This document shows positions 2,616-29,359 of a DNA stretch of 35,135 bases, one piece after another. Location of the stretch: positions 1 to 35,135 of the forward strand of contig DUCH01000087.1 of NCBI GenBank assembly GCA_012959865.1. The letters are read 5' to 3'. This stretch comes from Myxococcales bacterium (GTDB taxonomy: Bacteria; Myxococcota_A; UBA9160; UBA4427). Positions within the stretch are counted from its first letter, which is position 1. The number at the start of each line of letters is the position of its first letter. The translations under genes were made by a program, and so were the position numbers. The notes beneath the pieces are model-generated. The model had not been told where the DNA came from. It saw only the letters and a list, made by a program, of their open reading frames with translations, and did not search any database.

Positions 2616-2639
2616 GCGCTATCCGACGCGCTATCCGAC
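2616..2639. repeat. 12-bp perfect tandem duplication at a stop codon
   Basis: The unit GCGCTATCCGAC occurs twice back to back (2616-2627 and 2628-2639). The second copy contains the stop codon and last sense codons of the minus-strand cytochrome gene. The first copy therefore looks like a duplicate of the gene's 3' end. Confidence 0.9.
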
Positions 2640-5600
2640 CCGCTGCTGACGACGACGCTGCAGCCGTGCGAGACCGACGATTCCGGCCAAGAGCAAGACT
2701 CCCGCGCCGGGTTCGGGCGTTGGAGTCGGGTCGCAGGGATCGCCCAGGCCATCCATATCCGTATCGATTTGGTCGTTGTTCGCCAGTGCCGGGCAGTTGT
2801 CCGGGCTATCCAGGAAAAGATCGCGATCGCGATTCAATGCCATGCGCGTGCCCGAACCCGCCGGAACGCACGTGAAGGTTACGTCGGTGGACGCGGCGAG
2901 TGTTCGCAGAGCGGCCTCTGTGGTGGAAGTCCCATCGGAGGCATCGAAAGTCGCGCTCCCAGGGGCCCCACCCGTATAGAGCCAACCCATGGGTTCACCT
3001 GTGACCGTGGCCTTGGCGATCAGGTCACACTCGGTAACGACGCCCCCCAGGATCTCGGAGGTAAAGGGCGCGGCGGCGCGCTGGATGAGAAGGGCCAGTC
3101 GCGCATCGGTATCGGCATTGCTGCTGGATGAGAGGGTGATCTGTTGGCCAGTGATGGGCGGGAGATCCGAGTCGAAGACCAGCATGAAATCTTCCATCTC
3201 GGGAATCTGGACCGCGGGATTGTCGAAACCCGTGCCGTTGTTGAAGAGGTCGTTGAAGACCGAGGCGCGGAAGAAGCGAAACATGGTGTCTTCCGACCCG
3301 TCGTGCAGGAACCCGAAACCGCGAATCTGGTCGCCCTGGTGTGTGTGATCGCCTCCCGGCGTCTCGAATCCGGTGTCCGGGCTGCCGAACATACCGACCT
3401 TCTGATACATGTTGCGAAGATGGGCGACCTTGAAGATCTGGGTTTCGTTCTCGAAAGTGCCATTTGTACTGGTACCGAACCGGCCTAACGAAGCATTGAG
3501 TTCGTGACATCCATTGCAGGTAAAACCCTCTTCGGGGTTCGCAATGCCCGCAAGACCATTCAGCGCGGGGGTGTCCACCAAGCCGTCCGAGCGCCGGGGC
3601 CCGAAATAGAAATCAAAGCCTCCCTGCTGGGAGGGGGTCAGGGAGCCGTCGAGATTTCGCACGGGGTTGGGGCTCAGGGTCATCTTCAGGGCGAAGTCTG
3701 TGAAAGCTTGCATTTGGGTCGGCGTCAAGTTGCTCGATCGACCCAGAAGGCCGGAGAAGGCCACGATAAAATTATTGAACGAAATGTTCGTATCGGTGGC
3801 ATTGGTTCCCATCACGCCCGTGGAGCGATCCCCGCGCCAATGCATCGCGCCGCTATTGGGCAAGCCCTTCAGGGGCTGGGTGGTCATCGGGCCCTTCATG
3901 GGATGTATTTGGTGGTTGCCCGCGCCTCCATTGAGCAGCGAAATATCCGGCCCTCCCGCCAAGGCGAAGAAGGGGAAAAGAATCGAAAAATTGATGGGCA
4001 TCGGGTTATCCACCACCACGTCATCGGGGTTGCCCAGATCCCACGCCAGGTGGTCCATGTCGCCGAAAATATGGCAACTCGCGCAACTCTCAGCACCGTT
4101 GGCCGAAGTCGCGAGGGCGTCGTAGAGAAATGGACGTCCCGCCACGACGCTCGCCGACTCGGGGTTGTGCAGGAGAATATGGTGGGTTTCGGTCCGGGTC
4201 GCGGTATCGACGACCGAGACGCCATTATCGAATCGAGTGGCCACGTAGAGAGTCGAGCCGTCGGCCGAGAGCGCTAGCCCCGCTGGACCGCCGGCCGTCA
4301 GGCCTACATGATGCGTTTCTTGAGGAAGGGTCTGCACTTCCTTGGGAACGAAGGTGTCGGCCTCCAGGGCCGCGACATCGAAGATACCCACCTTGGCCGA
4401 ACTGAATGCCGCCAGGTAGAGAGTGGATGTCCCCGACTGGGAATCGTGATGAATCGCCATCTCGAGAGGCGTGGAAAGGCTCCGGGCTGCGAGCGTATTG
4501 TCGAAGGCCGGGTCGCTCGCCAAGACGGAAAAATCCGTGATGTGCTTGTTCAGGTGCCGCGCACCCGCGGTGGCATCGCTCGAAGTATTGGGGGCGGCGA
4601 TCACGGTAATCCTGGATTCCGCGATATGACCCTGGACGGTAGTCCCTCCGAGTATGCCCTCGCCCTCGAAGCGAACGTGGTTCTGCGCCTCGGTATTGCT
4701 GACATAGAGCGTTCCGTTGTTTGGATGAACCACCATGTTGAAAAGGGTCGTCCCCACATGGGTATGAAAAGCAACCTCAGCCAGCGAGTCGGCATCGATG
4801 GCGAAGACATCCTTATCGGGCAACGTAAAGCGGACGCCGTTGGTCCAATTCCGATTCTGTCCATCCCTGAACTGGCTACTGGCTTCATCCCATTTCACGA
4901 TTACGCCCACTTCCGGAGCCAGGATGCCCTCAACATTATTTGTTGGGCCCTGCATACCCCCCGGAACCTGCCCCGCCGGCAGACCACCGGGGCTGGTAAT
5001 TCCATCACCCCCGCACGCCGTGGTGCCAAAGCCGTCGCACACAACGCCTTCGGCCACCGTCGTCGTGCCATTGCCCGAGTGAAGAGCAGCCACGTAGACA
5101 TGGCTGCCGCTGGGGCTGACAGCCAAGGCACGCGGTGTGTCGGAGAAGAAGCTCAGGATCTCGAGTGGGGTACCGCCGAAATCGGCTCCCGGGGCATTGG
5201 CGTCGAACACCCAGACATCGTTGCGGCCGACTCCCGGGGTCGTGTATTCGGGATCGCCCGCGCCAGGAACACCCGAAATCGAAGCATCGGTGCGGTGCTG
5301 GCCACGATGGGCAGTACTGATGAAAACCCGAGGCCCAGTGGCTCCCGGAGGGTCGGCCACCACGATATCCCTGGGCTCATCACCCACCAGCAGCGTCCGG
5401 ACGACCCGCCCCGCACTCACGCTCACGATGCTCACGCTGTCCGACACGTGGTTGACCACCCAGGCCGTGTCGTCGTCCGTCGCCACCACGGCAACAGGCT
5501 CGAGACCCACGGGAATGGAAGTCACCGGGATGGGCTCGCCTCCCGCGCTCACGTCAAAGACCTCTAGATGCCCATCGGGAATATTCGTCACGAAGAGCAG

Positions 5601-5744
5601 GTTTCCGCTGGGTGACAACGTGATGGGACGCACCGCTCCGGATTCAAACAAAATCGAGTCGGTCTGCGCTTGCACGGACGCCGACAACGAAAACAAGGAA
5701 ATTGCAAGCCCGAGAAAGATCTGAACGGCGGCGCGGTGAATCAT
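2631..5744 (-). CDS. Secreted beta-propeller di-heme cytochrome (CcpA/MauG-like) with PEP-CTERM-like tail
   Basis: The product is 1037 residues. The start at 5744 is chosen because it opens a clear Sec signal peptide (MIHRAAVQIFLGLAISLF..., cleavage near SVQA-QT) and follows GAGGT. An upstream in-frame extension to 5885 lacks signal character. Residues 27-530 carry YVTN-type beta-propeller blades such as VTSIPVGLEPVAVVATDDD and GNLLFVTNIPDGHLEVFDV. Two haem c sites follow: CASCH at 554-558 and CNGCH at 743-747. Their spacing and context resemble di-haem peroxidase/MauG proteins. Near the C-terminus are a thrombospondin-3-like Asp-rich repeat (DNCPALANNDQIDTDMDGLG) and a tail PEPGAGVLLLAGIVGLARLQRRR, meaning a PEP motif, a hydrophobic helix and arginines. 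It is probably exported, haem-loaded and sorted to the envelope. The electron donor or substrate is unknown. Confidence 0.93.
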   Translation of the reverse strand: MIHRAAVQIFLGLAISLFSLSASVQAQTDSILFESGAVRPITLSPSGNLLFVTNIPDGHLEVFDVSAGGEPIPVTSIPVGLEPVAVVATDDDTAWVVNHVSDSVSIVSVSAGRVVRTLLVGDEPRDIVVADPPGATGPRVFISTAHRGQHRTDASISGVPGAGDPEYTTPGVGRNDVWVFDANAPGADFGGTPLEILSFFSDTPRALAVSPSGSHVYVAALHSGNGTTTVAEGVVCDGFGTTACGGDGITSPGGLPAGQVPGGMQGPTNNVEGILAPEVGVIVKWDEASSQFRDGQNRNWTNGVRFTLPDKDVFAIDADSLAEVAFHTHVGTTLFNMVVHPNNGTLYVSNTEAQNHVRFEGEGILGGTTVQGHIAESRITVIAAPNTSSDATAGARHLNKHITDFSVLASDPAFDNTLAARSLSTPLEMAIHHDSQSGTSTLYLAAFSSAKVGIFDVAALEADTFVPKEVQTLPQETHHVGLTAGGPAGLALSADGSTLYVATRFDNGVSVVDTATRTETHHILLHNPESASVVAGRPFLYDALATSANGAESCASCHIFGDMDHLAWDLGNPDDVVVDNPMPINFSILFPFFALAGGPDISLLNGGAGNHQIHPMKGPMTTQPLKGLPNSGAMHWRGDRSTGVMGTNATDTNISFNNFIVAFSGLLGRSSNLTPTQMQAFTDFALKMTLSPNPVRNLDGSLTPSQQGGFDFYFGPRRSDGLVDTPALNGLAGIANPEEGFTCNGCHELNASLGRFGTSTNGTFENETQIFKVAHLRNMYQKVGMFGSPDTGFETPGGDHTHQGDQIRGFGFLHDGSEDTMFRFFRASVFNDLFNNGTGFDNPAVQIPEMEDFMLVFDSDLPPITGQQITLSSSSNADTDARLALLIQRAAAPFTSEILGGVVTECDLIAKATVTGEPMGWLYTGGAPGSATFDASDGTSTTEAALRTLAASTDVTFTCVPAGSGTRMALNRDRDLFLDSPDNCPALANNDQIDTDMDGLGDPCDPTPTPEPGAGVLLLAGIVGLARLQRRRQQRVG

Positions 5745-6092
5745 GAGTCTACCTCTACCCGTTGGATACCCGTTGGAATGGGTTCGAGTTCGCGCGATGC
5801 AGTCGAGATAAGCAGATGCAGGAATCCCTTGTAGACCGGATTCACGTCTTGCTCCCCAATTCGCGCCAACGAGGCAGGATCTCATGAAAACGGTGAACTT
5901 TCAAGAGAAATGAGCCAGCGAGTTGCCTTCGACTTAAGACGAACCGGCACGAACCAAGCGAATCGGTCGCAACCCAATCGAAAGTCCGTTCTCTCCCCTC
6001 AACCAGGCCCATTGCGTCGAAAGAGAAAGGGGAAGGGAAAGGAGAATTATTTTCCCGTTATTGAACGAACCGACCCATTTCTTCATATTCCC
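5745..6092. other. Intergenic region with no supported gene
   Basis: These 348 bases lie between the cytochrome gene start and the stop codon of the acyl-CoA dehydrogenase, both on the minus strand. The region holds an 11-bp tandem duplication next to the cytochrome start, a purine-rich tract (about 6018-6042) and A+T-richer sequence around 6043-6105. A promoter for the cytochrome gene is expected here, but I could not identify convincing -35/-10 boxes. Reading frames crossing it on the plus strand run antisense into the dehydrogenase and have no gene-like features. Confidence 0.5.
5756..5777. repeat. 11-bp perfect tandem duplication in 5' leader
   Basis: TACCCGTTGGA occurs twice directly adjacent (5756-5766 and 5767-5777), 12 to 33 bases upstream of the cytochrome start codon. 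It lies in the presumed 5' untranslated leader just beyond the ribosome binding site. Confidence 0.9.
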
Positions 6093-9649: not shown

Positions 9650-10207
9650 TCACCGCCATTGCCCCGCGGACCGTTCAAAGAGTCCCTCGATGGCGGCCAA
9701 CCCGTTCTCCTCGAGGAAGCGTGTACCGGTCCCGGCAAAGTGCTCGTGGGTAATCACCGGTGCAACTTCGGGCTGCCACCCCTCGCGTCCCCAATAAAAC
9801 CAGCCGTCCTGATCCTGGTCGAAGACGAACAGCGGCTTGTTGCAGAGCTTCGCGAACTCGGCCCCCCAGCCGGTTCCTCCCTTGACGGTCTGATCTTCGA
9901 GAATTTTCCCCACGACGTAGATTTCCTGTCCATTGTTGACCTGGTGCCAGATGCTCTGAAGGACCTTTTTGAAGAGTGGCGTATCCTTGTACCGGCGGTG
10001 CATGAGGTTGCTCACGTAGGCCAGACTCACATCGCCTTGTTCGAGTTCGCGATGGGTCAAGACGCGAATGCCACGCCCCCGGGCATCGGAATGTTCGGCG
10101 AAAGTGAAGTTGACCTCTTCCACCCCGTATCGCTCCGCCGCCGCTCCGAAAGCGGCCTCCGCCCCATTCGCAGCGCCACTATAAAGAACGCAATCGTCAA
10201 TATTCAT
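9650..10207 (-). CDS. Conserved unknown with a Rossmann/SLOG-like N-terminus
   Basis: The product is 185 residues and soluble. GGAGG lies 7 bases before ATG 10207. The N-terminal segment VLYSGAANGAEAAFGAAAE (residues 7-25) has a strand, a glycine loop and a helix, as in LOG/DprA/YpsA-type (SLOG) nucleotide-binding folds. A second glycine-rich turn, GGTGWGAEFAKLCNKPLFVF, near residues 115-134 would fit the later strand of such a fold. An aromatic segment (DGWFYWGREGW) follows. No catalytic motif is certain. SLOG proteins bind or process nucleotides or their derivatives. Applying that here is inference and the role is unknown. Neighbours on the same strand are the SGNH hydrolase and the sulfotransferase. 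Confidence 0.82.
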   Translation of the reverse strand: MNIDDCVLYSGAANGAEAAFGAAAERYGVEEVNFTFAEHSDARGRGIRVLTHRELEQGDVSLAYVSNLMHRRYKDTPLFKKVLQSIWHQVNNGQEIYVVGKILEDQTVKGGTGWGAEFAKLCNKPLFVFDQDQDGWFYWGREGWQPEVAPVITHEHFAGTGTRFLEENGLAAIEGLFERSAGQWR

Positions 10208-10303
10208 GCCGGTCCTCCGAATGGGCCTCGCTACTACGATGCAAAACCTTGCTCCCCATGCCCGCCTGGCATCCCTTAGGCCGAGTTGAGTAGCCCTCAG
10301 ACT

Positions 10304-11461
10304 CTAGGCGAGATCAAAACGATCGATATACCAGGCCAAACGATCCCGAACGCGCGCCTCGCTCAGCCCATAGCGCTCGAGGTCGTATTCGTGGGTCCCG
10401 TGCTTGCCCCGGGGATTCGCGGTCAAATGCGCTCCCATGGCTTCTTCGGCGGCAGACTCGAGCGGCAATTCGAAGTGATCATAAATCTTTCGCATCACCC
10501 CCATCGAGTCGGACACGAAATCCGCGAAACGAATATCGATGAACCTAAGGGGATCCGACCGATCCCGAACCGCATATCCCCGCTCGAGGGAAGTGGCGCA
10601 GAAGTCGAGCACCGTTTCACCCAGACCGACCTGGGGCGAGCACCCCTGGGTCTGAAGCAGGGTTTCCATCATGCTGCAATACGACGCGATAGCTTCGACA
10701 GGATCCCGGTGGGTGAGCACGATACAGCAATCCGGAAACGTCTCCACGATGGCATCCATGGCCCAAAGGTGCGCCGGAGATTTCAGGAGCCAACGATCCC
10801 CGGGGCGCTGCCAGTCGACCATCTTGAGGAGATCACGGTAGTAGAGGTACTGCGGCTTAAGATCGCGATTGCGAAAGAATGATGCATACGGCTCCATCAA
10901 CACCTCGACACCTTGATGGACGTTCTCGAACGTAATGGCCATGGGAATAACGCATTCTTCGGGTGTGTCCGCGTCGGCAAAATGGATGCGGGTAAAGTCG
11001 GGGTTTCGCTCGCGCATTTTCGCGAAGGTCGCTTTCATTGCGGTGTGCCGAGGGTCCTCGGCGCCCTCTTCAAGACCCTCGAGGGGCTCCGGAAAAGTGC
11101 CCTCCCAAAGCAGGAGAGGCCGGGCCGCCGGGTCCATCCCCAGAAGATTGAAAGTCGCCGACGTACCGGTCCTCGGCAGCCCGCTAAGAAACATCGGCCT
11201 GAGAATTTTGCGCTCATGAATTTCAGGATGCGCTGTGAAGGCTGCCTCGACGCGCAGGCGGGTCGCCAAGAGTCTGAGCAGGCGCTTCCAATTCGAGCGA
11301 CGACCGCGTTCGTCGAGGCCGGCGGTCGAATCCAACATTTCACACAAAACGGCGAGCCCCTCCCGGAAGCGAGGATCACCAAAATCATCGAGACCAGTCG
11401 CTTCCCGAGCAGCCTCAAGCAGAGGCTCGATCTTGAATTCAAAGGAGCCTACTTCGCTCAA
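10304..11461 (-). CDS. PAPS-dependent sulfotransferase family protein
   Basis: The product is 385 residues. The 5'-phosphosulfate loop is SGLPRTGTS at residues 93-101, close after a strand (ILRPMFL). The 3'-phosphate site is VLTHRDPVEAIASY at 248-261, with Arg252 and Ser260 as expected ligands. WLLKSPAHLWAMD matches the conserved KSP segment. The family transfers sulfate from PAPS to hydroxyl or amine groups. The length and the long N-terminal helical part match the Sulfotransfer_3-type proteins common in bacteria with steroid or lipid catabolism genes. The acceptor is unknown. No sulfate activation genes are in the window. The upstream neighbour on the same strand is the DsbA/HCCA-like gene, 64 bp away. 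Confidence 0.92.
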   Translation of the reverse strand: MSEVGSFEFKIEPLLEAAREATGLDDFGDPRFREGLAVLCEMLDSTAGLDERGRRSNWKRLLRLLATRLRVEAAFTAHPEIHERKILRPMFLSGLPRTGTSATFNLLGMDPAARPLLLWEGTFPEPLEGLEEGAEDPRHTAMKATFAKMRERNPDFTRIHFADADTPEECVIPMAITFENVHQGVEVLMEPYASFFRNRDLKPQYLYYRDLLKMVDWQRPGDRWLLKSPAHLWAMDAIVETFPDCCIVLTHRDPVEAIASYCSMMETLLQTQGCSPQVGLGETVLDFCATSLERGYAVRDRSDPLRFIDIRFADFVSDSMGVMRKIYDHFELPLESAAEEAMGAHLTANPRGKHGTHEYDLERYGLSEARVRDRLAWYIDRFDLA

Positions 11462-11525
11462 AATCTGCTCCTCGCCAAGAAGTGCGCGCGACGAGATACC
11501 ACAGGCCCTTCCAGAATTTTGGACA

Positions 11526-12134
11526 TCATTTTCCCTCCGAGGCCCCAGCCAACGCCAACTCGACGAAAATCAACCGATCGCTTCCAAAAAAGAGTTCGCC
11601 ATTGACGAAGAAAGAAGGTGCGCCGAATACGCCCCGGGATACGGCCTCTTCGGTGGTCTCGCGCAATGCCGCCTTGACTTCGGGCGCGGTAGAGGCCTCG
11701 GCGAGCTTGCCCGCATCCACACCCCCTGCTTCGAGTTCGTCCGCCAGAACGACCGGATCGGCAAGGTTCTTCTCTCGCTCCCAGAACGCCGAAAAAACGG
11801 TCGCGTGAAACAGCTCAAAAACTCCACCTGCCACGGCTGCATGCGCGTATCGCATGAGCCCGAGAGTGTTGATCGGAAAGTGGGGGTTGCTGCGGAAAGC
11901 AAGTCCGTAGTAATCCACCCAACGCCGCATCTCGGTTCCGAAATAATTTCGCTTGGCATCCACGGGCTCTTGAGCGGGAGATCGATTCCCCGTCGCCTTG
12001 AAGACCCCGCCCAAAAGCATCGGGCGATAATCGATGCGGCAGCCGGTCCGCTCGATCAACCCGGCCAGCTGGGTGTCGGCGATATAGCTGTAAGGACTTC
12101 CATAGTCGTAAAAGAACTCGACAACAGTCGACAA
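11526..12134 (-). CDS. DsbA-like 2-hydroxychromene-2-carboxylate isomerase family protein
   Basis: The product is about 202 residues if translation starts at TTG 12134, which I prefer. GGAAGGGAAGC directly precedes that codon, and the protein then begins MSTVVEFFYDYGSPYSYIAD, exactly where this family normally begins. A longer frame to 12224 adds 30 residues of no family character. Ser13 in GSPYSY is at the kappa-GST/HCCA-isomerase active position, and there is no CxxC, so it is not a disulfide oxidase. A cis-Pro segment, GVFGAPSFFVNGELFFG, ends the thioredoxin fold. HCCA isomerases use glutathione in naphthalene-type breakdown. Many relatives have other, unknown substrates, so the precise reaction is open. 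Confidence 0.9.
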   Translation of the reverse strand: MSTVVEFFYDYGSPYSYIADTQLAGLIERTGCRIDYRPMLLGGVFKATGNRSPAQEPVDAKRNYFGTEMRRWVDYYGLAFRSNPHFPINTLGLMRYAHAAVAGGVFELFHATVFSAFWEREKNLADPVVLADELEAGGVDAGKLAEASTAPEVKAALRETTEEAVSRGVFGAPSFFVNGELFFGSDRLIFVELALAGASEGK

Positions 12135-12312
12135 AGCTTCCCTTCCCAAGTGCTCGCGGACCCTGAACGTGGGACGCCGCGCGGAGAGCCAGAAAGAAAA
12201 CCCGATTTCTCGAGCCCGCGCCATCCCCCGGCCGCCTGGAGTGACGAGCCTCCGCCACGAAGTGCGAGAGCGGTTCAGCCGACGGGTGAGCGAATTTCCC
12301 GTCGTGGATGCT

Positions 12313-12368
12313 CCGGACTGCGACGACCGGTTTACGGCAACCGGACTGCGACAACCGGCCTACGACGG
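12313..12368. repeat. 28-bp imperfect tandem duplication at the sixA stop codon
   Basis: Two adjacent 28-base copies (12313-12340 and 12341-12368) begin CCGGACTGCGAC and match at 22 of 28 positions by eye. The second copy includes the stop codon and last codons of the sixA-like gene. The first lies in the intergenic space downstream of it. Confidence 0.8.
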
Positions 12369-12869
12369 CGGGTTTTCGTCGGGCTTGCCAAATTCGATCA
12401 GATCACCGCAGCCCCGCTCCAATTGGCTCCAGCGCGAAATCTTGAGTCCGATACGCGCTATCCCGCACGTGGGAAGCCCGAACCCGTGCTTGTCACAGAG
12501 CCAATCCCATAACTCGCTGAGCCCCGGATTGTGACCAACCACCACCAGGTGCTGGATATCGGCGGGCGCCTCGCGAATCGAATCCCTCAGGGTGCTCATA
12601 TGGGCCAGATAGAGACTGGAACGGATGTCCACATCCGCGGAGCCGAGCGCGACAGAATCTGCGAGGATTGTCGTCGTGGAGAGCGCTCGCTCGGCGTCGC
12701 TGGTCCAGACCCCGTCGGGCTCAAAACCGCGATCGGCCAAGCGTGCCCTCAGGCGGATCGCGTCCTCTCGTCCGCGTTCGGTCAGAGGGCGGTCGCAATC
12801 CCGGATCCGCGAGCCGTGCTCGGACTCGGCTTCGGCATGCCGGATCAGCGTCAAGAGTCGTTTGCTCAT
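12360..12869 (-). CDS. sixA: SixA-type phosphohistidine phosphatase
   Basis: The product is 169 residues and belongs to the histidine phosphatase superfamily. The catalytic motif is LIRHAEAE with Arg10 and the nucleophile His11. A second Arg is in SDAERALST (Arg61), and the second catalytic His is His113 in VVVGHNPGLSEL. The short length and the RHAEAE form match SixA, which in Escherichia coli removes phosphate from histidine in phosphotransfer proteins. It is 118 bp downstream of a large hybrid histidine kinase gene on the same strand, which supports a role in damping that kinase's phosphorelay. That link is inference. The ribosome binding site is weak (GAGGG). Confidence 0.9.
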   Translation of the reverse strand: MSKRLLTLIRHAEAESEHGSRIRDCDRPLTERGREDAIRLRARLADRGFEPDGVWTSDAERALSTTTILADSVALGSADVDIRSSLYLAHMSTLRDSIREAPADIQHLVVVGHNPGLSELWDWLCDKHGFGLPTCGIARIGLKISRWSQLERGCGDLIEFGKPDENPPS

Positions 12870-12987
12870 GGGCGTAGGCCCTCGTTCGGGTTTTTCACAC
12901 CCCGCCCCCCCTTGTCCCCAGGCCGTTGGGACTCCAGGACTGTTTCAGCGATGCAGAGCTTAGCGACAAGCGTTCAAGCCTCCACGA

Positions 12988-15789
12988 TTATTTGGCACTC
13001 GGGATGGAGACAAGTGGGACCGTGAGGGGAAGACGAACCGTGAACTCGGCGCCGGCGCCCTCTTCACTTTCGACGGTCAAGGATCCGTCGTGCTCCGCAA
13101 CGATCCGCTGGCTGATCGAGAGCCCCAGACCCGTACCGCCCTGGGCATCTTTCGTCGTATAGAAAGGCTCAAAAAGCTGGTGCAATTTCTCGGAGCAAAT
13201 CCCCGGGCCATCATCCCGAATCCGCAGGACGATCGAGTCCCCGTCCCGAGCCAGCACAACACCGATCTCGCCACCCCCTCCGCCCAAGGCCTCTACGGCG
13301 TTCTTGAGAAGATTTAGGAAAACCTGGTTGAGCCCACCGGGGTCACCCGAAATTTTGGGTAGACCGGGCTCCACTTCAACCTCAATTCGCGCGTTGGCGG
13401 CGCTGATCGAATGGCCCACCAGGGTCAGGGTTGACCGCAGGCCCACTTCGAGATCCACTGGACCGTGAACCGCCCCGATGCGCCCGGGGCGGGCAAAATC
13501 GTGGAGGTCGCCCACCAGAGAGGCCGTGCGCTTCAACCCGTCGCCTACGATCCCCGAAAGTTCGAGCACTGTGTCGACCAGTTCGCGCGCATTTCGGCCC
13601 CCCGATTCGCGCTGATAGGTTTCCAGACGGCGGATCAAATCGGCAGGATTCTCAGAGTCCATCTCCATCATCTCCGCAGCAAGTTCGCCGAGATCTCTGA
13701 CCGATGTCTCCATGGCGCGAACCGCATTCAGCGCAAAGTTGACGGGGTTGTTGACCTCATGGGCGAGGCCCGCGGCCAACTCTCCAATCGCGGCCAGACG
13801 CTCGGACTGCACGAGCTGGACTTCGGCCTGCTTGAGTTCGTCGAGGGTCGTCTGGAGTTCAGAATTCTGATGAGCCAGTTCCCGCTGCAAGCTCGCAACT
13901 CGCACCAGGGAACGCACTCGCGCCAGCAACTCACGCGGATGAAAGGGCTTCGTCACGTAATCGTCCGCACCCAGCTCGAGTCCCTCGATCTTCATGTCCC
14001 GCTCGGCCTTCGACGTGACCAGTACAACGGGGATGTGTCGAGTATCGGCGTCTCCTTTTATGGCTCGACAAAGTTCCAAACCGGAGAGTTCGGGCATCAT
14101 GACGTCGGAAAGAACCAAATCTGGCGGAGACTTTCGGATGGCCTCCAAGGCTTCTCGCCCGTTCTTCGCCGTCCGCACCCTGAATTCTCGCCCCACCAAC
14201 ATCGCGAGCAGAGCACGCATATCGGGGTTGTCCTCGGCGATGAGAATCTCTCCCAAGAGCTCGGCGGATTTCGGTATGATTTTCACGCCCTCTTCTTGCG
14301 GGGACTCGTCGGCCTGGCGATCGGCCCAACGCAGCACCGAACGGTCCATCTCGGGCAGGGAACCGACTTCTCGTTTGCTCGGTCCGCTGGTCCCTGCATC
14401 AACAGCTTCGACCAGTCCCGCAAGGGAATCCCCGAGGCCGTGCGCTCGGCCGCTCTCGTCGCGAATGGTCTCTTCGTCCAGAACTGCGTCGGGTTCTCCG
14501 ATCGGAATCACGATATGAATCGTGGTTCCCCGGCCCTCGCCGTCGCTCGCGGCCCAGATGCGTCCACCGTGGAGTTCCACCATCTCCTTGGCCAGGGCGA
14601 GGCCGATTCCGGTGCCCTCGTGCCGACGCGTTGCCGAATCGTCCACCTGGGCGAAGCGGTCGAAGACCGCCTCGAGCTGGCTCGGCGGAATTCCTACTCC
14701 GGTATCCGCCACCGCCAGAGCGACCTCATCATCGCCCATCACCTTGGCGGAGACCGTGATTCGCCCCCCGGAATCGGTAAATTTCAGTGCGTTACCCACA
14801 AGGTTGACAAACACCTTGTCGAGGGCCGCGGCGTCGCCATTGATCGTCGGCACCTCCCCAAACCCATTCATTTCCAGCTGCACCTGCTTGCGCCGAGCCA
14901 AGGGCTCCGCGCTGGCGAGCAACTCCTCTACCAGCGAACTCAGCTGCATGGGCCGGCGAACCAGCGCGAGCTGTTCGTTCTCGAGCTTGGCAAAGTCCAA
15001 CAGGTTATTGATCATCCGATGAAGCCGACGGCCGTTGGCCAACATCATGTCTACGGTCTTCTGCACCTCGACCGGAAGCGGCCCCAGCTCCCCGCTGCGC
15101 AAAGCGTCGAGGGGCGAAAGAATCAGGGTCAAAGGCGTGCGGAGCTCGTGGTGAATATTCGCACTGAAGCGTGACTTGGCGCGGTCGAGTTGCGCCAACT
15201 CATCATGCGCCTCCTCGAGTTCACGCTTCTGGCAGAAATCGGCGAAACGCATACGGTCCATATGCATGGAAGCCCAACACGCCTCGGCGCACGCGGCGCC
15301 GAGAAAGAAAAGATTTTCCCCGAACGTCGCCCAGGAAATCGGATCAGAGGTATAGAGAGGCAGAGCGGCATAGCTAGCGAACATCATGGCCCCGATGGCT
15401 GCGGACTGCCGCGCATCCACGGGAGTGATCACTCCCATCCCGACCACCAGCAAGATCATTCCCACGTAGTATCCGCTGCTCACGCCTCCCGTCTGGACGA
15501 CCATGGTCATGAAGAGAAGCGATCCCAACGCGCAGACCGCGCCCACCGAGGGCACAGGCCAACGCCGGGCGGTTCCAGAGTAGATGACCCAAAGGGCCGC
15601 ATTCAGCGCGAGCCGCAAGCCGAAGAAAGAACCGAATTGATCGGGATGCAGTATCCAATCGGCAGGGATAAAAACGAATGTCTGGAGCAGAAAGAAAATC
15701 AGGACGGCATTGCGCAAAGCCGGGGCGAGCAAATCGCCTTCGATGTGATCCCGATAGTCGCGATAACGAGTGTGCCCCGCTTCTTTCAT
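12988..15789 (-). CDS. Hybrid sensor kinase: membrane domain, kinase, receiver, second kinase
   Basis: The product is 933 residues. Residues about 25-175 hold several membrane helices and no large periplasmic domain. The first kinase has the phospho-acceptor His214 in NIHHELRTPL, N-box VFVNLVGNALKF, DTGVGIP, and GTGIGLALAKEM. A linker (about 430-510) leads to a receiver domain with Asp519-Glu-Asp region IAEDNPDM, phosphorylated Asp562 in LSDVMMPELSG, and Lys614 in VTKPFHP. A coiled coil follows, then a second kinase with His677 in LAHEVNNPVNFAL, N-box VFLNLLKNAVEAL, and GTGLGLSISQRI. Two complete kinase cores in one chain is uncommon. The second core is NtrB/ZraS-like. A SixA-type phosphatase follows and the PilZ fusion precedes it on the same strand. 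No separate cognate regulator is adjacent. Confidence 0.94.
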   Translation of the reverse strand: MKEAGHTRYRDYRDHIEGDLLAPALRNAVLIFFLLQTFVFIPADWILHPDQFGSFFGLRLALNAALWVIYSGTARRWPVPSVGAVCALGSLLFMTMVVQTGGVSSGYYVGMILLVVGMGVITPVDARQSAAIGAMMFASYAALPLYTSDPISWATFGENLFFLGAACAEACWASMHMDRMRFADFCQKRELEEAHDELAQLDRAKSRFSANIHHELRTPLTLILSPLDALRSGELGPLPVEVQKTVDMMLANGRRLHRMINNLLDFAKLENEQLALVRRPMQLSSLVEELLASAEPLARRKQVQLEMNGFGEVPTINGDAAALDKVFVNLVGNALKFTDSGGRITVSAKVMGDDEVALAVADTGVGIPPSQLEAVFDRFAQVDDSATRRHEGTGIGLALAKEMVELHGGRIWAASDGEGRGTTIHIVIPIGEPDAVLDEETIRDESGRAHGLGDSLAGLVEAVDAGTSGPSKREVGSLPEMDRSVLRWADRQADESPQEEGVKIIPKSAELLGEILIAEDNPDMRALLAMLVGREFRVRTAKNGREALEAIRKSPPDLVLSDVMMPELSGLELCRAIKGDADTRHIPVVLVTSKAERDMKIEGLELGADDYVTKPFHPRELLARVRSLVRVASLQRELAHQNSELQTTLDELKQAEVQLVQSERLAAIGELAAGLAHEVNNPVNFALNAVRAMETSVRDLGELAAEMMEMDSENPADLIRRLETYQRESGGRNARELVDTVLELSGIVGDGLKRTASLVGDLHDFARPGRIGAVHGPVDLEVGLRSTLTLVGHSISAANARIEVEVEPGLPKISGDPGGLNQVFLNLLKNAVEALGGGGGEIGVVLARDGDSIVLRIRDDGPGICSEKLHQLFEPFYTTKDAQGGTGLGLSISQRIVAEHDGSLTVESEEGAGAEFTVRLPLTVPLVSIPSAK

Positions 15790-15882: not shown

Positions 15883-18324
15883 TCAGGGCCGCAGGGCGGA
15901 CACCACCACCGCCTGAGGGGGGGCGCCAAGGCTGCGCGACGCCCGGGCGTTGACGAATCCGCATTCCTCGAGCAACTCGCTCAACTCGCCGGGCTCCCAG
16001 AAATGGAACGCGCCCGTGTCCTCGAGTTCGAGGATTTTGGCCGCATCGTTCAGAAAACTGCGCGCCATGCCCCCGAGTTCGCGCTGCTCGAGTTCGGGCA
16101 ATTCCAATCCCGCTTCTCCGGCCTGGAGTTCGGCGTACGCTTCGACGTAGATGCGGCTGATATCCGCGTCGCAGCACAGGGAAGAAACCACCAGCCGACC
16201 CCCCGGACGAAGAATCCGAAAAATTTCCCCGAGAACGCGCTTGGGGAACTCGAGATACGAGAGCAACAACGAAGCCAGCACCCGGTCGAAGCACTGATCG
16301 GCCACCGGAAAGTGCTGTCCCGGGGCCAGAAGATCGAGATTGGCTTCCGCGCACTCAAGGCCGAATCCCGCGCCGCCGGGCAGAGCGGCCGCTCGCTCGC
16401 GGGAGCGCCGCAGCGCCGCTTCGACATAATCGAATGCCGTGATGCGAAGGCCTGCGGGACGGCTGGGATCGGCTGCCAACCCGAGCGCGAAACTCCCGGT
16501 GCCCGACCCGAGATCCGCGACGCGCTGGCCCGGGCCAAGTTCGAGGGCGACGAGTTGAGCTTCCATCAAGCCTCGATAGGCGCTGCTGGCGGTGAGGAGT
16601 TCGATCCCCAAGGAGCGATCCCGGCCCACCAGATAATCGCGCCAAAAGGCGTGCAGATCGGTTTCTACCCGGGGCAAACGGCGGCGCTCGGCGGCGCGTA
16701 GTTTCCGCACTTCCCTGGCCGGAGCCGCAACGGCTTTGAATTTTCGCCCCTGGGCCATGCGGCCCACTTCCTGGGCAATGCACTGAAAGGCCTGGCTCGC
16801 CTGCTGGCTGCTTCGAAGCTGGTGCCCTGTGGGCATGACCACCAGCCTGCGGCGACTGGTATCGCCGTGGGACAGAACCTTCTGCACTCGACCCAGATCC
16901 ACCCATGCGTCATAGCGCCCGTGAAACCAGGTGATCGGGATATCGATTTCAGCAAGATCCCGTCCCGAGTCCTCGATGAAAGACATGGCGTGGACTTCGG
17001 CATCCTTGACAACCTTGTCGACGTCCAGGGTCACACCGAGCAGTTCCTGAAGCCCGAATTCAAGACCCAATTCGTGGCCGGCCACAAAATCGACGCCGCC
17101 GGAAATGGAACGGGACATGCTCTGAAGATCGGGGGAGCCTACAACGCTGACCCAACCATCGATGGTTGCGCCTTTGTCGCGAGCCACCGCTTTGCGCACT
17201 TCGATGGCCGCCGCGCTAAAACTCACCACGATGACCTTGGAGACCCCCCATTCCGGCGCCTGGCGCAGGTGGGCGACCACCGCTTCAAGGTCGCGAACAC
17301 CCTGGGAAAATACGAAATTCCGACTTTCCGATCCGGGAAGCTGACAGTCGGGATCGTTGTGGGATTCACCGCGCCGGCGGATCCCGTCGTAGCGCAGAAC
17401 AACCAGTGATTCTCCGCTGGCTTCAAAAGTCGCGACCAGAGTCCGCGCCAGGGGGAGCAGCGCCTCCTTGGTCTGCCCCCAGCCGTTGGGCATCACCACC
17501 GCGGTCCGCTCACCCGATTCCCCACAGGCATCCACGAGGCCCACGATTTCCTCGCCCCGATCGTTCTGGATTCGCGCCACACTGGGTCCGCCGATTTCGC
17601 TGTCGCTCCGCGATGGGCGCGCGACCGGGTCGGCGTCGGTGAAGAGCGAATCGAACTCCTCGACTTCCAGCGGGCTCGTTCCCTCAGGCTGTTGACGCAC
17701 CAGGCCGACCCGGGTCCAGCCCGTCCTCCCCTCTACGGGACGACGATTGCGCAGTTCCAGCCGCAGTTCGGTCCCCGAGTCCCGGCCATCGAGAAAACGC
17801 ACCTTGACGGGCCGATCGGGGATGGAATCCGAATCCAGGATCAGGCCTAAGCCCGAGGGCGAAACGTTCTCCACTGCAGCCCGGCAATACCCCCCGCGAC
17901 CGTCTTCGATCTCGACACGGCTTGGATCCCCTGCACTGCCGTCGGGAGGACGCCGCGCTCGGTCCCGGCGCTCGCCGAAGAAGATCGTGTCGGGAAGAGT
18001 GACCCGAATTTGTCCCTTTTCGAATGCCGCCGAGGGCCGGGTGGCGAAGAAAAACGGCCGCTCACCGCAGCTGAAATTGAGGAAAATCTGGCTCCCGACG
18101 GGCGCACGATCAAAATTCTGCACGCGCAGAACCAGTTCGCCGTCGAGCACCTCGTCGAGGTAGGCAGTTTCAAGATCGATCTGCCGGTTGAGTCCTCGAT
18201 GAAACGCAACCCCTTCGGCCCGAGCACGCAAGAGCAGCGCCCGGATCTGCCGGGGATCGTCGATGGTCTCCGGATGCAAACGACGAAGTGCACCCTCGCC
18301 AATAGGCGTCGACCTACTGAGCAT
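15883..18324 (-). CDS. PilZ domain - LuxD-like alpha/beta hydrolase - SAM methyltransferase fusion
   Basis: The product is 813 residues. The start at 18324 follows GGAAGGGTTC, and upstream frame to 18456 is not needed. Residues about 15-215 form a YcgR-like N-terminal part and a PilZ domain. The cyclic-di-GMP motifs are visible: an Arg cluster RRDRARR at 119-125 and NVSPSG at 153-158. Residues about 250-520 are an alpha/beta hydrolase with nucleophile Ser370 in VVSFSAAAIE, Asp472 in HGRYDAWVD, and His501 in MPTGHQLRS. The SFSAAA elbow and DAWV segment resemble LuxD acyl-transferases. Residues about 560-813 are a class I methyltransferase with motif I VADLGSGTGSF at 602-612 and RILRPGGRLVVSS. 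I infer a c-di-GMP-controlled acyl-processing and methylating enzyme. The fusion is one unbroken frame. Confidence 0.93.
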   Translation of the reverse strand: MLSRSTPIGEGALRRLHPETIDDPRQIRALLLRARAEGVAFHRGLNRQIDLETAYLDEVLDGELVLRVQNFDRAPVGSQIFLNFSCGERPFFFATRPSAAFEKGQIRVTLPDTIFFGERRDRARRPPDGSAGDPSRVEIEDGRGGYCRAAVENVSPSGLGLILDSDSIPDRPVKVRFLDGRDSGTELRLELRNRRPVEGRTGWTRVGLVRQQPEGTSPLEVEEFDSLFTDADPVARPSRSDSEIGGPSVARIQNDRGEEIVGLVDACGESGERTAVVMPNGWGQTKEALLPLARTLVATFEASGESLVVLRYDGIRRRGESHNDPDCQLPGSESRNFVFSQGVRDLEAVVAHLRQAPEWGVSKVIVVSFSAAAIEVRKAVARDKGATIDGWVSVVGSPDLQSMSRSISGGVDFVAGHELGLEFGLQELLGVTLDVDKVVKDAEVHAMSFIEDSGRDLAEIDIPITWFHGRYDAWVDLGRVQKVLSHGDTSRRRLVVMPTGHQLRSSQQASQAFQCIAQEVGRMAQGRKFKAVAAPAREVRKLRAAERRRLPRVETDLHAFWRDYLVGRDRSLGIELLTASSAYRGLMEAQLVALELGPGQRVADLGSGTGSFALGLAADPSRPAGLRITAFDYVEAALRRSRERAAALPGGAGFGLECAEANLDLLAPGQHFPVADQCFDRVLASLLLSYLEFPKRVLGEIFRILRPGGRLVVSSLCCDADISRIYVEAYAELQAGEAGLELPELEQRELGGMARSFLNDAAKILELEDTGAFHFWEPGELSELLEECGFVNARASRSLGAPPQAVVVSALRP

Positions 18325-18634
18325 GAACCCTTCCAAGCCGGCGGCTCGAGGCTGCCTGGCAACGCGCTGCTCGGGGGGTAACAGAGAGCGCCGGGAATAT
18401 GCCAAACAATGCGGGCATTTCCACCCTTGAATTCGGGGAGTGTTCATTTTTATCACCTCGCGGTGTTCTTCCGAGCCCCCTGACCCGACCCTCGGTCCCG
18501 ACCCGACCCGCGGCCTGTCCTATGCTCCCGCGAGCGCACCCCGGGCGCGGGGAAGGGGCCCCGCTCAGACCACCGGAACACGCGCGAACCCGGGCACGCA
18601 TGGGTCCGGGCCCACCGGGGGCGGGAGGCGAGTG
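18325..18634. promoter_or_regulatory. Divergent intergenic region between the PilZ fusion and the RND gene
   Basis: These 310 bases separate two gene starts pointing away from each other, so promoters for both must lie here or be internal. The left half is A+T-richer around 18393-18456. The right half is very GC-rich with repeats of CGACCC (18483-18513). No convincing -35/-10 pair was found on either strand. The inverted repeat at 18394-18422 is the only defined element. Confidence 0.5.
18394..18422. promoter_or_regulatory. Imperfect inverted repeat, operator candidate
   Basis: GGAATATGCC (18394-18403) and GGCATTTCC (18414-18422) form arms separated by 10 bases, with a single-base bulge. The element sits about 70 bp upstream of the PilZ-fusion start in a divergent region. 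It could be an operator or a hairpin. This is a weak call from symmetry alone. Confidence 0.3.
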
Positions 18635-20935
18635 GTGGAACCGAAGGCGCTGCGCGCACGAACCCCCTTGGCCTTGATTGCACTTGGAATCCGGCGGCCG
18701 GTTCCCGTGCTGATTTTCTGGCTCGCCTTGGCGGGACTCGCCGGCCCCGGACTCCAGCGCCTTCAGGTGGACACTTCCACCGACAGCGTGCTCGACCGTC
18801 GCCACCCGGCGTGGCAGGTCTACCAGAACAGCCAGGAAGAATTCGGAGGCGACGAAATCATTGTGGTGGCGCTGCGCAGCCAGCGCCCCTTTGACCCGGC
18901 GGTGCTGACCACAGCCGCGCGCCTGGGCGAACGCTTGGAAAACCTCGAAGGGGTACGGCGAGTCGATAGCATCGCCCAGGTCCCCGTCGTTTGGGTCAAC
19001 TCCCAGGGCGATCTCGAACTCGAACCGGCGTTCGACGACGAAATGGCCGACACCCCAGCCCGGGCGAAGCGCATCGCCGAGCGTCTCGCCGTGGACCGAA
19101 TCGCACCGCACAGCTTGATCGCCGAAGAAGGCCGAGTCGTCGCGCTGAATCTCCATCTCGAACGCGGGGCCGAGGACCGGCACGCCGAACTTCTCGCCGA
19201 AGTCCATGCCCTGGTGGATCCCGCGGGCGGCATTCTTTCGGGGGTTCCGGTCTTCCGTGTCGCCGCCAACGAGCGCACCCGGAACGAGATCCTCGACTTC
19301 GCGCCGATCACCGGAGGCTTGATCGCGCTCTTCCTTCTTTTTGTCTTTCGCTCCCCCGCAGCGGTCGTGCTCGGGCTCCTGCCGGGCGCTCTGGGTTGCG
19401 GGTTCTTGCTCGCCGCGATGGGATATGCCGGGGCTCCCTTGAGCATCACCACCATGGTGCTCCCGTCGATCATCGTGGCCCTGGGCTGCGCCTACTCGAT
19501 GCACGTGCTCGTGGCGGCCAGCACCGTGCCCGCCGAAAGCCAAGGAAAACCCGATGTTCTCCAGGATGCACTCGCCCGGGTGGGCCTTCCCGTCGCACTC
19601 TCGGGCTTGACCACGGCCCTTGGGCTCCTTGCCCTGACTTTTGTGCGAATCGAAGCGGTCCGGATGACGGGCGGATTTGGCGCACTCGGAGTGCTCGTCG
19701 TGACCGCGCTCGGCCTTACCCTGCTGCCGGCGGGCCTGGCTCTCAACCCTCGGCCCATCCCCACGCCACGGGGGTTCGCATGGGTCCACAACCGGCTGGC
19801 CCCGGCGCTGGTGACTGCGATCGATCGCCGGGGCCCTCGCATTCTTGGCCTCTGGGCGGCGATCGTTGTGCTCGCCCTTGTGGGCGTTGCCCGACTCGAG
19901 GTGGAGACCGACGCAACCCGCTGGCTTCCCATCGGCAATCCGGTGCGCGACGCCTACGAGGACATTCGCACGACTCTTTCGGGCATCAGCCCCATGAACA
20001 TCATCGTCGAAGCGCCACCGGGGCGCAGCATCCTCGAACCCCAGGCCCTGAGGGCCATCGATGCCCTCGCAACCCACCTCGAAGCGCTTCCCGACGTGGG
20101 CAAGACCCTCTCGCTTGCCGATCCCCTTCGTCAATTGCACGGGGGCTTCCTCAATGATCCAACCCAACCCCTGCCCGACAGCGTGGCAATGGCCGAGCAA
20201 TACCTTTTGCTGCTGGAATCGCTCGAACAACTGGAGGACCTGATCCGCTTCGATCGTTCGGCGGCGAATATCCTGATCCGGGCCGACAACAACGGATCCG
20301 CGGGGCTGATGGGCATCCGCGAAGACGCGGATCTCTGGTGGAAAGATCACGGCCCGGACGGCTACGGGATCACCACCACGGGCATTATGTATGAGTTCGC
20401 TCGAGCCGAGGACGAAATCGCGTATGGGCAGGTCCGGGGGTTGGCGGCGGCTCTGCTGGCAATCTCCGCCGTGCTGCTTCTCATTTTTCGCTCACCGGGC
20501 CTGGCGGTTCTTGCCCTGGCCCCCAACGCCGTTCCCCTGTGGCTCATTTTCGGGATCCTGGGCGGCTTCGGACTTCCATTGGACGCCGGTACCGCTCTAA
20601 TCGGTTGCCTCGCCCTGGGCGTCGCCGTCGACGATACGATCCATATCGTGGCGGGCTTCCACCGACGAACCCAGTCAGGGCTCGACGCACCCACGGCGCT
20701 GAACCAAACCTTCGCCGAGGTTCTGCCCGCCATCGCGAGTACCACGGCGATGATCGCTGGGTCGTTTCTCGTGCTCGGGTTTTCGGAGTTCACCATCATA
20801 CGAAACCTCGGCTGGGTGACGTCGGGCATCATGGTGCTCTGCTTTATCGCCGATGCCACGCTGCTGCCCGCGCTTCTGGTCCGTCGCAGAAAAACCCGGG
20901 GGCACCGAATGCGTGATGATCGAGCGCCGCTATAG
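18635..20935 (+). CDS. RND superfamily (MMPL/HAE3-like) exporter
   Basis: The product is 766 residues. I chose GTG 18635 because GGGAGG lies 6 bases upstream and the protein then begins VEPKALRARTPLALIAL, just before the first membrane helix. The upstream frame is a Pro/Gly/Arg-rich artefact. The layout is the internal duplication of RND proteins: helix 1, a periplasmic loop (QVDTSTDSVLDRRHPAWQVY onward), helices 2-6, helix 7, a second loop, then helices 8-12. The second half carries the proton-relay motif GVAVDDTIHIVAGFHRR. The equivalent first-half site reads ALGCAYSMHVLVA and lacks the acid. HAE3-type relatives move lipids or hopanoids to the outer membrane. The substrate here is unknown. 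A VIT-family gene follows 7 bp downstream. Confidence 0.92.
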   Translation: MEPKALRARTPLALIALGIRRPVPVLIFWLALAGLAGPGLQRLQVDTSTDSVLDRRHPAWQVYQNSQEEFGGDEIIVVALRSQRPFDPAVLTTAARLGERLENLEGVRRVDSIAQVPVVWVNSQGDLELEPAFDDEMADTPARAKRIAERLAVDRIAPHSLIAEEGRVVALNLHLERGAEDRHAELLAEVHALVDPAGGILSGVPVFRVAANERTRNEILDFAPITGGLIALFLLFVFRSPAAVVLGLLPGALGCGFLLAAMGYAGAPLSITTMVLPSIIVALGCAYSMHVLVAASTVPAESQGKPDVLQDALARVGLPVALSGLTTALGLLALTFVRIEAVRMTGGFGALGVLVVTALGLTLLPAGLALNPRPIPTPRGFAWVHNRLAPALVTAIDRRGPRILGLWAAIVVLALVGVARLEVETDATRWLPIGNPVRDAYEDIRTTLSGISPMNIIVEAPPGRSILEPQALRAIDALATHLEALPDVGKTLSLADPLRQLHGGFLNDPTQPLPDSVAMAEQYLLLLESLEQLEDLIRFDRSAANILIRADNNGSAGLMGIREDADLWWKDHGPDGYGITTTGIMYEFARAEDEIAYGQVRGLAAALLAISAVLLLIFRSPGLAVLALAPNAVPLWLIFGILGGFGLPLDAGTALIGCLALGVAVDDTIHIVAGFHRRTQSGLDAPTALNQTFAEVLPAIASTTAMIAGSFLVLGFSEFTIIRNLGWVTSGIMVLCFIADATLLPALLVRRRKTRGHRMRDDRAPL

Positions 20936-28096: not shown

Positions 28097-29353
28097 ATGC
28101 GCGGCAACGTTCTCGTGGTCGATGATCAGTCCCTGTCCCGCACCGCCCTCGCGAATGACTTGCGTGACGGCGGCTTTGAGGTCCAAGAGGCGAGCAACGG
28201 CGTCGAGGGCTGGGCACGGTTCTGCCAGCGGGCACCCGATGTCGTGGTCACCGATCTCGTAATGCCCGCATCCGATGGCCTTGACCTCCTCAGCCGGATC
28301 CGATCTCGATCCGATATCCCAGTCATCCTTTTTTCTGCCCACGGAACGGTTCAGACCACCGCTGCTGCCTTCAAGGCCGGCGCCCAGGACTTTCTGGCCG
28401 CCGATGACCTCGCGGGCGAAGACATCGTCGAACGCGTCGCGCGGGCATTGGCAGCGGTCGAAGGTGACCGCGAAGACTCTCCGATGTATCGGTATTTCGT
28501 GGGTCAGACCCCCTCACTGAAGAGGCTGCGTACGCAGCTCACCGCTCTGGCTCCATTGGCTTCCCCGGTTTTGGTGCTCGGACAACGTGGGACCGGACGA
28601 GATACTGCGGTTCGCGCCCTCCACGAACTTGGCGCAACCGCTGGGGGAAGCTTCGTGAGAATCGCTTCCGCTGCCCCAGTCCCTGACTTGTCCGCACCCT
28701 TCCCTGCGGCCCTCTACCTAGATGGATTGGAGGGCCTTACACCAGAAATGCGCACGACGTGGTTTCTTCGAATCGCCGATGCCCGCCGTCGCGGCTACGG
28801 AAAGACCCGACGAATTTTCATCTCGAGCACTTGGCTCGCCGACCGTTGGCGCGCTGACTCAACTTTCGCGACAGAACTTGGCGTTTGTCTCCTGAACTCG
28901 GCGGTCGAACTTCCCGCACTCTCCAGTTACCGGGAAGATCTACCCGAAATCGCCCAAATGCTCTGCGGACGAATTTCGGAACGCCTGAGCCGGAAGCTGC
29001 GCCTCTCTCCCGCAGCGTTGCGCCTTGTCAGCGAGCACGAGTGGACGGGCCAGAGCCGCGAAGTGGAGCACTTGATTGAGCGCGCGGCGCACTTCTCCTC
29101 TGGCCAGCAGATACGACGGGAGACTCTCGCGGCCGTAATCCAGGAAAATTCTGAAAGCGTTGCGCGCTACCGAGAACTGCGCCGCGAAGGTGAATTCACC
29201 GATCTAACTCGAACCCTTCAAAACTCCGGCGGAAATATCGCGCTTACGGCCCGGCGACTCAATCGTAGCCGAGGGGCCGTCTATCGAATGATCAGAAAAT
29301 ACGGAATTCCTCTTCGACCAGCATCTGAAGCAAAGAAACCCACTCGAAACTGA
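28097..29353 (+). CDS. NtrC-like response regulator with a degenerate AAA+ domain
   Basis: The product is 418 residues. The receiver domain has Asp9/Asp10, phospho-acceptor Asp53 in VVTDLVMPASDG and Ser80 in ILFSAHG, but the usual Lys of the KP motif is missing (DFLAADD). The next 210 residues align with a sigma54-activator ATPase. However, the Walker A loop reads GQRGTGRDT (162-170) with Arg in place of Lys, and the Walker B segment reads ALYLDGLEGL (205-214) with Gly for Glu. The stretch with the sigma54-contacting GAFTGA loop is absent, about 30 residues shorter. A Fis-type helix-turn-helix (NIALTARRLNRSRGAVYRMIRKY) ends the protein. It probably binds DNA without activating sigma54 RNA polymerase. 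It is the first gene of the RND/kinase operon. Confidence 0.93.
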   Translation: MRGNVLVVDDQSLSRTALANDLRDGGFEVQEASNGVEGWARFCQRAPDVVVTDLVMPASDGLDLLSRIRSRSDIPVILFSAHGTVQTTAAAFKAGAQDFLAADDLAGEDIVERVARALAAVEGDREDSPMYRYFVGQTPSLKRLRTQLTALAPLASPVLVLGQRGTGRDTAVRALHELGATAGGSFVRIASAAPVPDLSAPFPAALYLDGLEGLTPEMRTTWFLRIADARRRGYGKTRRIFISSTWLADRWRADSTFATELGVCLLNSAVELPALSSYREDLPEIAQMLCGRISERLSRKLRLSPAALRLVSEHEWTGQSREVEHLIERAAHFSSGQQIRRETLAAVIQENSESVARYRELRREGEFTDLTRTLQNSGGNIALTARRLNRSRGAVYRMIRKYGIPLRPASEAKKPTRN

Positions 29354-29359
29354 GCCCCG

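Follow-up and report, generated by a model that had tools for sequence, protein, structure and literature searches.

The window, the whole 35,135-nucleotide stretch of DNA analysed here, carries on its minus strand an 813-residue open frame (15883..18324) in which a YcgR-type PilZN-PilZ module, a LuxD-like alpha/beta hydrolase and a class I SAM methyltransferase are joined in one polypeptide. This three-domain architecture is conserved across Myxococcota with its catalytic and PilZ motifs intact, the gene is paired with that of a membrane-bound hybrid histidine kinase, and in other genomes its place beside the kinase is taken by a PhcB-type synthase. We consider it moderately likely that the pair is a Phc-like module for synthesizing and sensing a lipid signal, with a c-di-GMP-sensing thioesterase-methyltransferase in the place of PhcB. 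Read in this way, fusion and kinase probably make and sense a fatty-acid methyl ester signal across Myxococcota; the pair works like a Phc module although its synthase is not PhcB, and is a new version of a known cell-to-cell signalling system of plant-associated bacteria.

Architecture and distribution of the fusion

The layout of the gene is supported by the open frame itself, by relatives and by AlphaFold, which models the full-length protein with a pLDDT of 83 and a pTM of 0.76. Its ATG start is also kept by the closest relatives, and a longer frame beginning at a GTG at 18456 found no support among relatives. The source genome is a metagenome-assembled genome (MAG) of an uncultured organism (5.08 Mb in 553 contigs, 88% complete), and the relatives compared are likewise mostly MAGs of Myxococcota/Deltaproteobacteria. 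As 23 of the 60 relatives searched, all members of the window's taxonomic order, carry the fusion with 33-80% identity along its length and in independent assemblies, it is a conserved gene and no assembly error; further fragments of it were seen at contig ends among these relatives. An earlier note, made from the DNA letters alone, had described the single-frame fusion, and the independent assemblies bear this out, confirming that the three domains form a genuine fusion in a single 813-residue protein. The combination, unfamiliar to the author of the note, is no one-off and belongs to a phylum-wide family, traced by its hydrolase to 55 of 379 Myxococcota genomes sampled.

Outside the window's order, fusion homologues are encoded by longer frames (940-1300 aa) that preserve the domain order PilZN-PilZ, hydrolase, methyltransferase, and most of them have one more PilZ domain at the N-terminus, with matches as strong as E 2e-18. 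Many of the long homologues (L091-L093, L101-L110) also carry an insert of ~95 residues in the methyltransferase, after its SAM-binding half. A search of PLSDB for relatives of the fusion returned generic methyltransferases only, and a search of a limited literature collection yielded no paper joining LuxD with PilZ and none joining 3-hydroxypalmitate methyl ester with a methyltransferase and PilZ.

The N-terminus begins with a YcgR-like, PilZN-like barrel (~residues 20-117; 17974..18267, minus strand), identified by AlphaFold and Foldseek, which is followed by a PilZ domain (~residues 118-212; 17689..17973, minus strand), identified by Pfam PF07238 and by fold. The Pfam match is weak and under the cut-off on the window protein (E 0.006), and reaches E 7.7e-8 among the orthologues, 11 of 21 of which match. 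Alignment of the 21 orthologues showed an invariant Arg cluster, ERRxxxR (residues 118-124), together with invariant S155 and G158. The cluster includes the RxxxR motif (residues 120-124; 17953..17967, minus strand; R119, R120 and R124 invariant), and the (D/N)xSxxG motif (residues 153-158; 17851..17868, minus strand) always has D or N at position 153. When an AlphaFold model of residues 1-235 was searched with Foldseek, the first 16 matches were all YcgR-type PilZN-PilZ chains, PP4397, YcgR, MotI, MrkH, VCA0042 and PlzA among them. The PilZ domain that had been proposed, with its Arg cluster and NxSxxG motif, is therefore present, with intact motifs and a YcgR-type fold, but it is not the only barrel: the N-terminus is PilZN plus PilZ, and the long homologues have a further PilZ domain. 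With the YcgR-type proteins YcgR, PP4397, VCA0042 and MotI, the fusion shares the PilZN-PilZ double barrel with RxxxR and D/NxSxxG; whereas their output is flagellar braking or DNA binding, that of the fusion is two fused enzyme domains.

The LuxD-like alpha/beta hydrolase (~residues 247-545; 16690..17586, minus strand) was missed by single-sequence searches and revealed by profiles and folds. The hydrolase profile found LuxD (1THT) as its best match among PDB sequences (E 0.008), in an alignment that covers the Ser and Asp regions and stops at the His. A fold search with the full-length model also placed 1THT first (E 2.9e-15, 16% identity, TM 0.80 on the target). NCBIfam LuxD and Pfam Acyl_transf_2 match among the orthologues. 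As the LuxD equivalog score of 12.7 bits is far below the 420-bit cut-off, the hydrolase is a relative and not an orthologue of LuxD. Its triad was located by alignment at S370, the nucleophile (17215-17217), D472 (16909-16911) and H501 (16822-16824; all minus strand), and these residues are invariant in 41 of 41 aligned homologues spread across the phylum. With 1THT heading the PDB by both profile and fold and the triad invariant, the earlier assignment of a LuxD-like hydrolase with a Ser/Asp/His triad holds. The domain resembles LuxD, the myristoyl-ACP thioesterase of Vibrio harveyi, in its alpha/beta hydrolase subfold, in its triad and in the placement of the Ser in a non-GxSxG elbow, but it is only ~16% identical to it, forms the middle of a fusion and lies outside any lux operon. 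Its substrates could be other acyl or ester compounds.

The class I SAM methyltransferase (~residues 546-813; 15886..16689, minus strand) was assigned by Pfam and by motif. Matches to Methyltransf_11/25 are over the cut-off, that of Methyltransf_11 on the window protein at E 7.6e-14, and the D604xGxGxG motif (16495-16515, minus strand) is invariant in orthologues, in line with the complete methyltransferase proposed before. Of the checks that the earlier note had suggested, the Pfam search recovered the methyltransferase over cut-off, PilZ under it and the hydrolase with no match over it, and structure prediction placed both the YcgR-type N-terminus and the LuxD-like fold. A profile of PhcB-type methyltransferases (motifs KPLGYxGDY and GLFDYL) had no match anywhere in the window's genome, and when the profile of the fusion's methyltransferase was compared with it, the Rossmann core alone aligned. 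The fusion's methyltransferase is not of the PhcB type, and its product could therefore differ.

The partner kinase and its two candidate synthases

The gene that follows the fusion was overlooked in the earlier note. Starting 93 bp past the fusion gene, with no terminator-like site found in the 93-bp gap, it encodes a hybrid histidine kinase of 933 aa (12988..15789, minus strand), composed of a six-helix membrane sensor, a HisKA-HATPase module (H214), a REC domain and a second HisKA-HATPase module (H677). In the stretch that spans the membrane sensor domain and the start of HisKA (15127..15777, minus strand), D44, R59 and Y107 are invariant in 26 loci. The kinase is present in all 55 genomes with the fusion, and in 51 of them its gene immediately follows that of the fusion on the same strand; in pairs elsewhere the stop and start codons often overlap. 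A profile of the sensor domain finds the kinase in 144-149 genomes; among 3,425 frames of the loci examined, it hits these kinases and spares the window's other kinase. Farther along the window lie a sulfotransferase gene (10304-11461), whose position after the kinase gene is conserved in 8 loci of the order; a gene for a 1084-aa protein (2631-5885) that has a lactonase-like beta-propeller region as well as a weak PEP-CTERM sorting signal; and a second signalling cluster (28097-34056, plus strand), in which genes for an NtrC-like response regulator, an MMPL transporter and a histidine kinase are joined by start/stop overlaps.

Related operons contain genes for c-di-GMP enzymes, with GGDEF-EAL genes in L092 and L103, and the window's genome also encodes GGDEF proteins, with only two GGDEF domains found there; both observations fit the mechanism proposed below. 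In L092, an HD-GYP domain replaces the second kinase module of the partner kinase, and a convergent REC-PAS-GGDEF-EAL gene adjoins it (10018-12729 and 12754-14850), an arrangement that we would describe as Rpf-like wiring of the same sensor. The RpfF/RpfC/RpfG DSF system pairs the synthase of a fatty-acid signal with a hybrid kinase and is linked to c-di-GMP. The candidate signal synthase, hybrid kinase and c-di-GMP link found here resemble that system, as does the HD-GYP end of the L092 kinase; RpfF, by contrast, is a crotonase-fold enzyme, and no PilZ, LuxD or methyltransferase is known there.

Where the kinase occurs without the fusion, it is usually preceded by a different PilZ-methyltransferase of ~490-530 aa, in which a PilZ-like domain at the N-terminus is joined to a methyltransferase marked by KPLGYxGDY and GLFDYL motifs. 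Full-length copies of this second type were found in 59 genomes, in 48 of which the kinase gene comes right after them, and none of the 379 genomes has both types together. A search of kinase-only loci with the fusion profiles turned up no divergent fusion copy apart from one contig-end fragment. Mapped on a tree of the kinases, the synthase type switches four times, a rough count from a quick tree. Such an exchange of two unlike methyltransferases beside one sensor is what would be expected of a synthase-sensor pair.

The first 100-130 residues of the PhcB-type proteins resemble a PilZ barrel, with a Pfam match of E 4e-6 in L131, and Arg22 of PhcB seemingly lies inside it. This PilZ-like N-terminus was seen in the Paraburkholderia gene (L132:5638-5970) and in genes upstream of the kinase in L120, L123, L124, L127-L129 and L131, and Ralstonia PhcB itself may contain a degenerate PilZ domain. 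A CMAS/CFA-like methyltransferase gene, possibly for a further lipid-modifying step, lies beside the PhcB-type gene in L112 and L115 (Myxococcota) and in Paraburkholderia (L132:3583-4605).

A plasmid of Paraburkholderia graminis encodes a 468-aa methyltransferase with 33% identity to the second type; the gene series there runs methyltransferase (468), membrane kinase (445 aa), receiver (134 aa) and regulator (344 aa). The Myxococcota series of second type, kinase and PhcQ-like regulator matches this operon, which in turn has the layout and protein sizes of a phc operon. The published order is phcBSRQ, with 464-468 aa for PhcB, 368-374 aa for PhcR and 336-337 aa for PhcQ (PMC8578825). The P. 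graminis methyltransferase has an Arg at position 22, the residue reported as conserved in PhcB of Ralstonia, Cupriavidus and Paraburkholderia (PMC6989110), and the phosphoacceptor of the P. graminis kinase is His233, compared with His230 in PhcS (PMC11960443). The sensor profile matches this PhcS-like kinase with 94 bits over the whole membrane domain. The connection to Phc, made through one Paraburkholderia plasmid operon, published sizes and gene order, and R22, is strong by context and indirect.

In Ralstonia, PhcB makes and PhcS senses 3-hydroxy fatty-acid methyl esters (PMC8578825, PMC11960443). Judged on the Paraburkholderia PhcS-like kinase, the fusion locus likewise has a PhcS-type sensor kinase beside a methyltransferase synthase: the methyltransferase gene comes first, the membrane sensor kinase follows with a homologous membrane domain, and a REC domain and second kinase module are arranged as in PhcR. 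In contrast to Phc, kinase and regulator are one polypeptide here, the REC and HK of the putative PhcR counterpart being fused into the kinase, and the methyltransferase comes from another family and is joined to a LuxD-like hydrolase and a YcgR-type PilZ module. Some related loci contain PhcQ-like REC genes; none lies immediately beside the window pair, which is not known to be tied to the LysR regulator phcA.

Neighbouring genes and alternative readings

Divergent from the fusion, the window encodes an MMPL/HAE3-family transporter of 831 aa (18440..20935, plus strand). An MMPL/HAE3 transporter with HpnN-like similarity adjoins ~20 loci, and in other genera of the window's order its gene lies between those of the fusion and the kinase. 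This neighbour would suit a role in envelope-lipid modification, in which c-di-GMP-controlled acyl release and methylation act on a membrane or storage lipid, the MMPL protein exports it and the kinase senses envelope lipids; the acyl-CoA dehydrogenases and GDSL lipase nearby in the window and the CMAS-like methyltransferase gene beside PhcB-type genes in the same order point the same way. Synthase and kinase may then be linked through lipid or envelope metabolism and not through cell-cell signalling. We regard this as unlikely: in other orders the MMPL gene is not a neighbour of the pair, and a methyl-ester signal is favoured because the kinase sensor is homologous to that of the PhcS-like kinase and because PhcB-type enzymes can fill the synthase position at this locus.

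The hydrolase might instead be a BioH-like methyl esterase that degrades the signal made by the methyltransferase, making the fusion a turnover enzyme set by c-di-GMP. Weak BioH matches do occur among the orthologues, and serine hydrolases of this fold include carboxylesterases; however, LuxD outranks every esterase by profile and by fold. PhcB-type synthases at this locus have no hydrolase, so a fused thioesterase that supplies the substrate is the simpler reading, and we give the esterase little weight. Smaller still is the chance that the fusion makes an unrelated small molecule, such as a polyketide- or amino-acid-derived ester, and shares an operon with the kinase by coincidence. The methyltransferase does belong to a generic family from which the substrate is unreadable, but the fusion is constantly paired with a single family of kinases (51 of 55), never shares a genome with the PhcB type (0 of 379) and has no other conserved biosynthetic genes beside it in the loci compared, all of which speaks against this reading. 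A chimeric assembly of separate genes is next to inconceivable, as, although the source is a MAG in 553 contigs, 55 genomes in independent assemblies, one of them single-contig, share the same fusion, and its recurrence at 33-80% identity excludes a joining error.

Proposed mechanism and its meaning

For the Phc-like module, we infer the thioesterase substrate, the methyl ester product, the binding of c-di-GMP and the direction of its control, the ligand of the kinase and the role of MMPL as follows. The LuxD-like hydrolase would free a fatty acyl chain, the donor probably being 3-hydroxyacyl- or plain acyl-ACP or -CoA, and the methyltransferase would cap the freed carboxylate with the methyl group of SAM, giving a signal like a fatty-acid methyl ester. 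The YcgR-type PilZ module would bind c-di-GMP and set the output; we propose that the signal would therefore follow the sessile or motile state. The six-helix kinase would sense the product and relay phosphate via REC, as PhcS/PhcR do in Ralstonia, and the neighbouring MMPL pump may transport the lipid. The earlier note had already guessed at a c-di-GMP-controlled product of this sort, such as a fatty acid methyl ester or signal lipid. The adjacent PhcS-like kinase, the PhcB-type gene that replaces the fusion and the MMPL transporter now support this guess as context, with product and control still at the level of prediction.

More tentatively, and with slightly less than even confidence, we suggest an undescribed cell-to-cell system extending across Myxococcota, in which c-di-GMP would directly gate a thioesterase-methyltransferase in one polypeptide, its fatty-acid methyl ester product would be sensed by a fused PhcSR-like kinase, and LuxD-type and PhcB-type PilZ synthases have repeatedly been swapped. 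This is a specific prediction, for which a single purified protein together with one kinase would suffice as a test. If true, a second-messenger receptor would sit inside a signal synthase, such that an intracellular c-di-GMP switch sets an intercellular lipid signal within one protein, and the loci would be a natural experiment in which the signal synthase was swapped while the receptor was kept. Fatty-acid methyl ester signalling, known from a few Burkholderiales, would then also reach a phylum whose members are social and predatory.
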